Origin: an uncultured Bdellovibrionales bacterium
GTDB taxonomy: Bacteria; Bdellovibrionota; Bdellovibrionia; Bdellovibrionales; UBA1609
DNA: 42,865 bases
Direction of reading: 5' to 3'
Assembly: GCA_937936325.1 (NCBI GenBank)
Contig: CALGWV010000077.1
Location: 1 to 42,865 of the forward strand
Every line of letters begins with the position of its first letter. Position 1 is the stretch's first letter. The notes under the pieces are model-generated. The model was not told the DNA's origin. It saw only the letters and a list, made by a program, of their open reading frames with translations, and did no database searches. This document shows, piece after piece, positions 3,009 through 34,632 of the stretch. A program made the translations under genes and the position numbers.

Positions 3009-3104
3009 GTGCCGGGACCCTTTCAATAGGTTTGCTGATCAACTCCGCCAGGTCCGAAAGGAAGCAACGGTCGTTAGCGATTTATGTGATTGGCATCCCG
3101 GCTT
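3009..3104 (+). ncRNA. ffs: Small bacterial SRP RNA (4.5S)
   Basis: The universally conserved apical segment AGGTCCGAAAGGAAGCA lies at about 3050-3066. The helix closes with GCCGGGA (3011-3017) pairing with TCCCGGC (3096-3102), giving a single hairpin of about 95-100 nt with no Alu domain. That is the 4.5S form of Gram-negative bacteria. It binds Ffh and targets nascent membrane proteins to FtsY and SecYEG. It sits directly upstream of dnaX, as in several other bacteria. A short open frame across it is not a gene. Confidence 0.95.
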
Positions 3105-3109
3105 TTTTT
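3096..3109 (+). terminator. Terminator at 3' end of SRP RNA
   Basis: The 3' strand of the closing SRP helix (CCCGGC) is followed at once by seven T residues (3103-3109). The RNA's own terminal stem therefore probably serves as an intrinsic terminator, separating ffs from dnaX. Confidence 0.7.
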
Positions 3110-3254
3110 ATTTCTCAATAAAAACCCTCCTATTTCACCAAACAAATTAAGCTCTCTCTTAAAGCTTTTTTTAGCTCTTTCCCTAGGCGTGAACACAAAG
3201 ACAGTTTAAAATAAGTGTTCTTGTCGATTTAGTCATTTTAAGGATGAATTTATT

Positions 3255-4898
3255 ATGTCTTACAAAGTTTTAGCTCTGAAATGGAGACCACAAAAGTTTT
3301 CAGATCTTGTAGGTCAAAAATCAATTCAAAAAGTGCTCACCCAGGCTCTTAAAAATGAACGCCTTCCTCAGGCTTTGATTTTTAACGGCCCCCGCGGAAC
3401 TGGAAAAACCTCAACAGCCCGTATACTTGCTAAAAATTTGCGCTGCCCTCAAGCCAAAAATTTTGAAGCCTGTGGGGTTTGTCCTGAGTGCACAGACATC
3501 GCCGATGGACGCAGCCTCAATGTTTTAGAGATTGATGGGGCCAGTAACAACGGAGTCGAGTCTGTTCGTGAGCTGCGGGAGTCCATTAAATTCCAGGCCT
3601 CTTCTGGTAAGCACAAAGTTTATATTATTGATGAGGTGCATATGCTTTCTGGCAGCGCCTTTAATGCTCTACTTAAAACCCTTGAGGAACCCCCAGAGCA
3701 CATCACTTTTATTTTAGCCACAACAGAAATTCATAAAATTCCAAAAACGATTTTATCACGCTGCCATCGATTTGATTTTAGTCGTATTAATTTAAATGAG
3801 ATTGTAGAGGCCTTAAAGAAAATCACGCTTGCAGAGTCCTATAAGGCAGATGAGTCCGCTCTTTGGACCTTGGCTCGCTTAGGAGAAGGCTCAATGAGAG
3901 ACAGCTTGAGCCTTCTAGACCAGGCTCTCACATTTTCTGAGGATAATACTCTCACTTCAGAACTTCTCCAAGAGTGCCTGGGTTTGATGGACCGCAAAGA
4001 TCTCCTTCAGCTTTTTGAAAATGTTTTGAATAATAAGGCCGACGAGGTGATTTCACAGCTTGAGCATATTTTGAGCTTTGGTATTTCAATAAAAAATTTA
4101 ATGAAAGATTTTTTAGAAGAAATTAAGTTTTTAATACTCATTAAAAATAAGACACCCACCCAATATATCCCTCTCCCTTCATTTGAAGTAGAGCATTTAC
4201 AAAAAATGGCTCCAGAGTACGAACTGGCCGATCTCCATATGATTTTTGATATGGGACTCAAGGTTCTTGAAAACTTGGCCCAACTCCCAGGAGAAGAGCG
4301 CCTCGTTCTAGAGATGGGATTTTTAAAACTATGCCACTTCAACCGTATCGAAAAAGTAATAGACTATGCCGCTTCGCAAACTCAAACTTCAGCGACATCT
4401 TCGGCTCAAGCTCCTAAAGCCCTAACTCCTAAAATGAAGCCTGCTCCTGCTGCTGAACTTCCGAAACCTGCGCCTGAAGCTCCAGCACCAAATTTGGGTG
4501 ACGACACAGCTCCTCAGTGGGAGGAGCTCATCGACCGCATTGGACGTATTAACCCCAAAATGGGCGCCGAGCTCAAAAGCTCTGCATATGTTTGGGACTG
4601 GGAACGGCGCCATTTAAGTTTAAGCTCCCCTAATGCTGAAAGCTTCTTGGTGGAGAGTTTAAATTCAGAGAAGTTCCAGAAAGCACTTCAAAATTATTTA
4701 AAAACATTTACAGGTGAAGTCTTCTCTCTTGAGATTAAGACCCAACTTCAAAGTCTTTCACCGATAGACAAAAAAAAACAAAATGATCAAAAATCATTTG
4801 AAGAACTAAAAAAAAAAGTAAAGAATCATCCCCAAGTTCTTGAAGTGGAAAAGCATTTTGATATTGAAATCAAAAGCATTGATGCTCTATCCCCATAG
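3255..4898 (+). CDS. dnaX: DNA polymerase III subunit gamma/tau
   Basis: A 547-residue clamp-loader ATPase. It has Walker A GPRGTGKT at 45-52, zinc cysteines at 64, 73, 76 and 79, Walker B DEVH at 126-129 and the sensor-1/arginine-finger segment ending SRC at 168-170. A Pro/Ala-rich linker at about 385-420 precedes the C-terminal tau-specific region. It loads the beta clamp and ties the holoenzyme together. The start has AAGGATG upstream. Near the 3' end are runs of nine A (4770-4778, Lys506-508) and ten A (4809-4818). A -1 shift at the first gives Thr-Lys then TGA at 4784-4786, so a shorter gamma-like form of about 510 residues is possible. It is followed by ybaB and recR. Confidence 0.97.
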   Translation: MSYKVLALKWRPQKFSDLVGQKSIQKVLTQALKNERLPQALIFNGPRGTGKTSTARILAKNLRCPQAKNFEACGVCPECTDIADGRSLNVLEIDGASNNGVESVRELRESIKFQASSGKHKVYIIDEVHMLSGSAFNALLKTLEEPPEHITFILATTEIHKIPKTILSRCHRFDFSRINLNEIVEALKKITLAESYKADESALWTLARLGEGSMRDSLSLLDQALTFSEDNTLTSELLQECLGLMDRKDLLQLFENVLNNKADEVISQLEHILSFGISIKNLMKDFLEEIKFLILIKNKTPTQYIPLPSFEVEHLQKMAPEYELADLHMIFDMGLKVLENLAQLPGEERLVLEMGFLKLCHFNRIEKVIDYAASQTQTSATSSAQAPKALTPKMKPAPAAELPKPAPEAPAPNLGDDTAPQWEELIDRIGRINPKMGAELKSSAYVWDWERRHLSLSSPNAESFLVESLNSEKFQKALQNYLKTFTGEVFSLEIKTQLQSLSPIDKKKQNDQKSFEELKKKVKNHPQVLEVEKHFDIEIKSIDALSP

Positions 4899-17727: not shown

Positions 17728-17861
17728 AAGTCCTCTTCTTTAACTTCAGTGTGAGTTTATCCTAAATTCCTAGAAAATCGAGTACAACCGAAGGGGTAAG
17801 TGATTTATCTCAGCAATAGCCGAGAAAAGCCCATACAGCCCCATAATGACATGAATGAATA

Positions 17862-18021
17862 GTGGGTGCACTTAGGTTCTCCCTATTTCTGAGGAAATGA
17901 TTTTTGAATTAATTTTGATGGGAGAGCCTGAAATACCTGCTCTAGCACATTTGAAGCTGATCAAATTAAATTAGCTCAAAAAGCGCTCCTCAGAAATTAG
18001 GAAAAATCCAAGTGTGTCCCG
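17862..18021. repeat. TA-flanked palindromic element, copy A2
   Basis: An imperfect palindrome of 160 bp with TA at 17860-17861 and 18022-18023. Its + strand aligns end to end with the reverse strand of copy A1. Where A1 has CTGTGG/CCACAG in its arms, A2 has CTGAGG/CCTCAG. The loop keeps GAGCCTGAAA and TTTGAAG, and its inner hairpin is TGC-TCTA-GCA instead of TAGC-CATA-GCTA. It occupies most of the 365-base divergent region between the ATP-grasp-like gene and the exonuclease gene. It ends five bases before a TTGACA hexamer. Confidence 0.8.
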
Positions 18022-18027
18022 TAAAAA

Positions 18028-18058
18028 TTGACAATTTACCCATGGACCTCAGTATGAC
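18028..18058 (+). promoter_or_regulatory. Candidate promoter of the exonuclease III gene
   Basis: TTGACA (18028-18033) is a perfect -35. The best -10 is TATGAC (18053-18058) at a long 19-base spacing, overlapping a further CATAAT. The leader would be about 28 bases. The -35 begins five bases after the TA bordering element A2. Confidence 0.45.
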
Positions 18059-18092
18059 ATAATCCTGATGCAGAATCATAAGGAGGCACTTC

Positions 18093-34100: not shown

Positions 34101-34125
34101 ACTGACCAATAATGATGATTATTTA

Positions 34126-34303
34126 GGGTGTGTCGACAATTCATCTAGCTACTCCGACCTCGAGATCCTGTAATTTTGAACTGTGCTCAAGAATTTTTTA
34201 ATCAAAGTGGCCTTAGCCACGTTTCACAAAAAATTCTCTGCGCTCAACTCAAAATTTTTGGCTTTCGAGCTCTCGCTATGCCAGATGAATTGTCAACACA
34301 CCC
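34126..34303. repeat. TA-flanked palindromic element, copy B
   Basis: A 178-bp palindrome spanning its full length, with TA at 34124-34125 and 34304-34305. The outer arms GGGTGTGTCGACAATTCATCT and its inverse differ at one base. The centre is the perfect hairpin GTGGC-CTTA-GCCAC near 34215, with scattered mismatches between. Short open frames inside it are by-products of the repeat. The ends resemble those of elements C and D more than A. The stretch from 34306 to the IS holds nothing else that I can identify. Confidence 0.75.
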
Positions 34304-34632
34304 TAAAGAAACAAAAACCTGTCAAAAACTTAACATTAACCTGTTCCATGACTTTAAACTCCTTCTCTTAAATGTTTTTTGCTTTATTTTTAATCAAAAA
34401 GTGATCCGCAATTTTCATTTGCTATCTTTAAATATTTTAGAGATGAGCTTCTCAACTCACACAGGCCATTTCTTAGCACCAAACACTCATGGAATGATAT
34501 AGAGCTACAGCTCATGATATCAGCCATAAAAAATATTTATCATATAGCATGAATATATCAATTATATCTATTCGTTTAAATAATACATTCTAATGGTAAT
34601 ACTCCCATTTTTAGGAGTGAGAATGAGTAGAG

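Follow-up and report, generated by a model that had tools for sequence, protein, structure and literature searches.

Positions 1 to 42,865 of the stretch analysed here (the window) make up an entire contig, C77, of a draft genome (2.06 Mb, 138 contigs) of an uncultured Bdellovibrionales bacterium, and were found to carry two inverted copies, A1 and A2, of a hairpin repeat. A1 and A2 are probably copies of a non-autonomous MITE bounded by TA dinucleotides, with a strand-specific folded tip that would be needed in cis. The assignment as a MITE follows from the TA-bounded inverted repeats, the many near-identical copies, the presence of decayed copies and the exclusively intergenic positions. Judged by sequence comparison, the element is one member of a superfamily in the Bdellovibrionota in which ends and arms are unrelated and an inner core is common to all, predicted to consist of an A/T-rich helix, a ladder of tandem G.A mismatches and a short capped stem.

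Two inverted copies in the window

A1 occupies positions 1–165 on the minus strand and A2 positions 17858–18025 on the plus strand, with scores of 191.8 and 165 bits, respectively, against the full-element covariance model R1. A1, a member of a young CTGTGG subfamily, is truncated where the contig stops, and about 52 bp separate it from the 3' end of a leftward ORF (217–945). A2, a whole but partly decayed TA-bounded hairpin repeat, begins with AATAGTG, closes with CCCGTAAA, and is located within 17728–18092, flanked on one side by a leftward gene without a family assignment and on the other by an xth-like exonuclease gene (Exo_endo_phos). A previous sequence-only reading had placed A2 at 17862–18021; an element is indeed present there, and the true unit including the TA ends is slightly longer. 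The same reading had described the two copies as inverted and alignable end to end, which holds at 78–79% identity and a distance of 17,694 nt. Its stem segments were also recovered, namely CTGTGG (30–35) with CCACAG (129–134) in A1, both read on the plus strand, and CTGAGG (17889–17894, plus) in the 5' arm of A2 with its partner CCTCAG (17988–17993, plus) in the 3' arm. Both copies retain GAGCCTGAAA and TTTGAAG, and the apical stems are as it gave them.

The inner part of A2, comprising the A/T helix, the purine mismatch ladder and the tip, extends from 17898 to 17983 (plus) and matched the core model R3 with 64.1 bits (E 6.6e-11). The corresponding part of A1 (39–125, minus) scored 90.8 bits (E 1.4e-16), and its opposite strand just 18.6 bits. 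The tip of A2, GGGAGAGCCTGAAATACCTGCTCTAGCACATTTGAAGCTGATC (17920–17963, plus), is composed in order of a GA / GCCT / GAA ladder, the apical TGC-TCTA-GCA and a GA / AGCT / GA return. Elsewhere in the window, the bacterial small SRP RNA was located at 3010–3106 (plus, 53.9 bits), just upstream of dnaX.

Both copies fold better than shuffled sequences (z -11.8 for A1 and -4.8 for A2). Comparison of A1 with A2 over 66 predicted pairs showed 44 unchanged, three double-compensated (about 0.8 expected by chance), six changed on one side with the pair kept (five from Watson-Crick to G.T and one from G.T to Watson-Crick) and 13 broken or unpaired. With three compensated pairs and 13 broken ones, the two copies by themselves do not demonstrate selection. 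The paired change first noticed is real, though weak taken alone, and it is a difference between source lineages, CTGTGG versus CTGAGG; the mobile-repeat nature of the element and the relatives sharing only its core are invisible from A1 and A2.

The element as a repeat in its own genome

Searching the genome with the full-element model disclosed 35 distinct places at E ≤ 1e-5. The element is a TA-bounded hairpin of 163–167 bp with flanks unrelated between copies, and ten A1-type copies, also in unrelated flanks, share 98–100% identity across whatever part is present. Copies contain at least nine contig ends (of C2, C8, C65, C68, C77, C93, C94, C109 and C118), which is what a repeat that interrupts assembly would be expected to produce. 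Most complete copies have the ends TATACTG...CAGTATA, and the test for a terminal inverted repeat found TATACTGRRCRCACTTAGG at both ends. TA flanks most complete copies on both sides, a target duplication being inseparable from the conserved TA ends. The terminal repeats appear to reach almost to the middle of the element, so that each strand would be foldable end to end. All 54 of the 54 copies checked are intergenic. Within the own genome the upstream gene has the same orientation as the element in 10 cases and the opposite in 13, the downstream gene in 8 and 13, and no orientation bias toward neighbouring genes was seen among the checked copies.

A transposase that targets TA and is provided in trans would presumably have driven the spread within the genome; an IS630/Tc1-mariner type is a guess, none being linked to the element. 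No transposase with matching paired ends was found in the draft assembly, where multi-copy elements may be lost in gaps. In the test for an IS630/Tc1-mariner MITE the TA ends were present, and the single DDE_3 gene that the genome carries, on contig C102, was set aside as the partner transposase, no such ends lying near it. The possibility that the 3' half of the element (MREPEILALAHLKVIKLNLIKK...) is the remnant of a transposase C-terminus was likewise dismissed, as it had no Pfam or NCBIfam match and its frame is broken in relatives, which indicates that the DNA and not a peptide is conserved there.

A second, unrelated TA-flanked hairpin MITE is present in the window at 34126–34303 (TA at 34124–34125 and 34304–34305). 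It has the ends GGGTGTGTCGACAATTCATCTRGC, a fold z of -11 and approximately eight places in the genome, six of them at 91% identity or more. It was discarded as a relative of A1 and A2, since the conserved core is absent from it according to R3.

Distribution of the core

In G022, a genome of the same family but another genus, the full-element model found nine places, the elements having the ends CTAGTGTCGTAACC... and not TATACTG..., with an inner 85 nt that aligned without gaps at 69%. A pattern scan of named genomes added JAUILT01 (same family, Bdellovibrionia) and JACTMU01, a third lineage whose ends differ again. Among 141 genomes of the order, the core model R2 picked out 9. From these, R3 was built, a covariance model spanning the 88 nt of the inner part; it found the core in 19 of 144 genomes of the class and, within the phylum, in 21 of 369, most of which belong to the own class, the remaining 348 being negative. 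The elements of these relatives have other TA-flanked ends, and arms and ends are unrelated between lineages, yet every arm is paired. Several lineages carry a single copy, at unrelated loci (pth/ychF, pilM and others) with no shared neighbours.

The core seems, from its sequence contexts, to be a module that changes carriers: in G040 the same core occurs within at least two different outer ends, and in G107 and G128 two inverted cores occur within one pair of ends. The latter are composites (L214 and L225 in G107, L217 in G128) with core hairpins of opposite orientation inside long outer inverted repeats. The ends in G107, TAGGGTGTTTCCTC..., resemble those of the second MITE family of the window. 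In JACTMU01, a repeat of 46–52 nt, GGGTCAAYTTTACTGAGAATAGGTGGGTCAATTTTGCTGAGAG, is found in L103 at 3124–3175, 3807–3858 and also 50–95; it flanks one core element and resembles insertion-sequence ends.

No credible core match was obtained in the plasmid, E. coli and viral collections, and the phage collection gave only two unannotated, bacterial-looking gut scaffolds, which appear to be related, and one chance match. One scaffold, L226 (MT837857.1), was matched by blastn at E 7e-4 and by R3 at 48.1 bits; the case of the other, L230 (MT839239.1), is weaker, as it matched L226 by blastn and had no match to R3. Both records are named 'Bacteriophage sp.' (UNVERIFIED), and the neighbouring genes read as bacterial housekeeping genes (hpt, tilS, dnaB, rplI, and parE/parC or gyrase). 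By this gene content they are probably bacterial scaffolds misfiled as phage; they may be clostridial.

Structure and covariation of the core

Proceeding from the outside, TA is followed by near-perfectly paired arms of 20–35 bp, unrelated between lineages, and often by a purine-rich internal loop, recognised by eye in several lineages as GCGCAGGG...GAACAAGC. Next comes a helix starting with ATTTT/AAAA, then the internal loops GA/GAA, GC/AA, GA/GA, GA/GA and GAA/GA, split by single C-G or GC pairs, and innermost GGA-C-TAGC, a loop of 3–8 and GCTA-A-TTC.

Alignment of more copies had been proposed as the check on the paired changes, and in the resulting alignment (A7, 39 representatives from 23 sources) every stem covaries overwhelmingly. 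Paired cells account for 91.9% and all 27 pairs covary with double changes in each, counts that are flattered by the fitting of A7, like A5, to the model structure and whose cells are not independent events. The safeguards were slid and shuffled controls, with covariation scores of at most 0.147 and 0.212, respectively, against 0.755 for A7, and independent folds of each sequence.

Conservation is highest at letters that are, for the most part, unpaired purines (G34, A61 and A73, 0.97 each; G28 and G64, 0.92 each); most arm positions, the T/A run excepted, have 0.1–0.6 bits. The G.A non-pairing is itself conserved, at 34:61 in 37 of 39 representatives, at 24:73 in 32 of 38 and at 31:65 in 31 of 39. 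Five representatives, including the family of the own genome (GCCT/AGGC) and two G111 elements, have two Watson-Crick pairs in place of the middle GA/GA mismatches. Cells of the G.T type relative to the A.C type number 36:3 in the tip, where one conserved position gives 27 of the 36, 12:4 in the ladder and 27:12 in the arms, and the sense strand of the full inner part folds better in 31 of 39 representatives with RNA parameters and in 33 of 39 with DNA parameters. For the tip, these data support the earlier suggestion that a folded hairpin, of RNA or of DNA, is under selection, and they do so in a strand-specific manner; for the outer arms of the own family the evidence is not strand-specific.

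Origin of the conserved pairing

Pairing might also be kept mechanically, without any selection, if one arm is rewritten from the other by template switching or gene conversion, arm-to-arm copying being a route that the sequence-only reading had allowed. Among 22 own-genome copies, 66 compensated cells were counted against 19.9 expected under independent arms; the arms show no strand bias and those of young copies are long and near-perfect, all of which fits such copying, and template switching is a documented mechanism (PMC8794818). Either process, selection or template switching, could have produced the double changes in the arms. Against copying, compensated pairs do not lie next to one another in tracts significantly more often than expected (8 adjacent versus 5.6, p 0.18), and it leaves unexplained how mismatches on one strand stay at fixed positions through a complete turnover of the arms; alone, it would erase the conserved mismatches. 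Template switching could well be what holds the two arms to the same sequence, but fixed mismatches would tend to be lost under it, and as the whole cause of the pairing it is improbable.

That the tip is instead a host-serving RNA or cis-regulatory element riding on a repeat, for instance a small RNA, an RNase III- or CsrA-type site or a transcript end, would agree with the strong covariation, the conserved unpaired purines, the strand-specific stability and the single copies of several lineages, and MITE transcripts elsewhere are RNase III substrates or small RNAs (PMC10969869). This we consider unlikely, because the mixed orientation and unrelated loci speak against a host function site by site, and the distribution is patchy, at the 21 of 369 genomes given above. 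In addition, derived single changes in the resident copies of the own genome are near-equal in G.T and A.C types (44:36), which gives no sign that these copies are held to a one-strand fold; the older ones simply decay. Searches of Rfam 15 at gathering and relaxed thresholds returned no family and just sub-threshold chance matches, chiefly to long-hairpin miRNA models, and at A2 neither a terminator nor an excess of promoters was seen. Recognition of the element as folded ssDNA by an HUH (IS200/IS605-like) or attC-type recombinase, which would tell the strands apart by the mismatches, would account for a hairpin with strand-specific mismatches and for the greater stability of the sense strand with DNA parameters too. 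It is nevertheless very doubtful, as DNA folding of two isolated tips did not reproduce the ladder, no linked gene was found, and TA-flanked terminal inverted repeats are ill-suited to IS200/IS605 elements.

The favoured reading remains a MITE whose strand-specific tip is needed in cis. The tip would act as a folded single strand, either RNA or ssDNA during replication or transposition, and would be bound by a protein, and the element would depend on the tip in cis in order to spread or survive. Selection would operate on source copies, for spread and not for host use, with inserted copies decaying afterwards; selection on spreading copies is the simplest way to reconcile a tip kept on one strand across lineages with the decay of resident copies. 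More tentatively, the tip could be an independent G.A-ladder module that unrelated TA-inserting elements of different phyla carry and exchange, and that acts in cis as the signal for a mobilising or protecting protein.

Comparison with known elements

Correia/NEMIS membership was rejected since the host belongs to the Bdellovibrionota and not to Neisseria, and the Correia ends differ by inspection from those of the present element. Known bacterial MITEs, as described in PMC2229807 and PMC10969869, are comparable in size, TA ends, intergenic position and stem-loops. Correia/NEMIS of Neisseria, RUP and ERIC are likewise small, intergenic and multi-copy, with TA ends, no internal transposase and an end-to-end stem-loop on paper (PMC2229807); however, they are recognised by their ends and confined to related hosts, whereas the present elements have only the folded tip in common, across families and possibly phyla. 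Chunjie of Geobacter uraniireducens (178–235 bp) and the QMITEs of Coxiella (about 190 bp), compared by description only, are similar in size, copy number and decayed partial copies, and the available part of the review's account mentions no shared tip (PMC10969869). CIR elements of Caulobacter and Brucella are also intergenic and expose a conserved motif in their RNA model, but consist of two arms and a GANTC site and not of a single hairpin with a G.A ladder (PMC2229807). The intrastrand triplex motif TM/PIT is likewise a conserved intergenic purine-rich hairpin abundant in bacteria; identity with it was rejected, its consensus CCCTCNCCC...GGGNGAGGG being a different sequence (PMC4666352). 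Rickettsia palindromic elements, palindromic repeats of 105–146 bp, are often found inside reading frames (PMC2229807), unlike the copies checked here.

In the open-licence literature searched there was no family with a common folded tip and unrelated ends, a description elsewhere being possible, and nothing relevant on the core sequence or on Bdellovibrio MITEs. These hairpin elements form a widespread and apparently undescribed group. In bacteria a MITE is usually defined through the terminal sequences recognised by a transposase; in the present group those termini are completely replaced, and what persists, over class-level and perhaps phylum-level distances, is the folded tip. Since the ends are replaced while the strand-specific tip is kept, the tip must do something, and whether a MITE hairpin is under selection at all, and then as RNA or as ssDNA, becomes directly testable.
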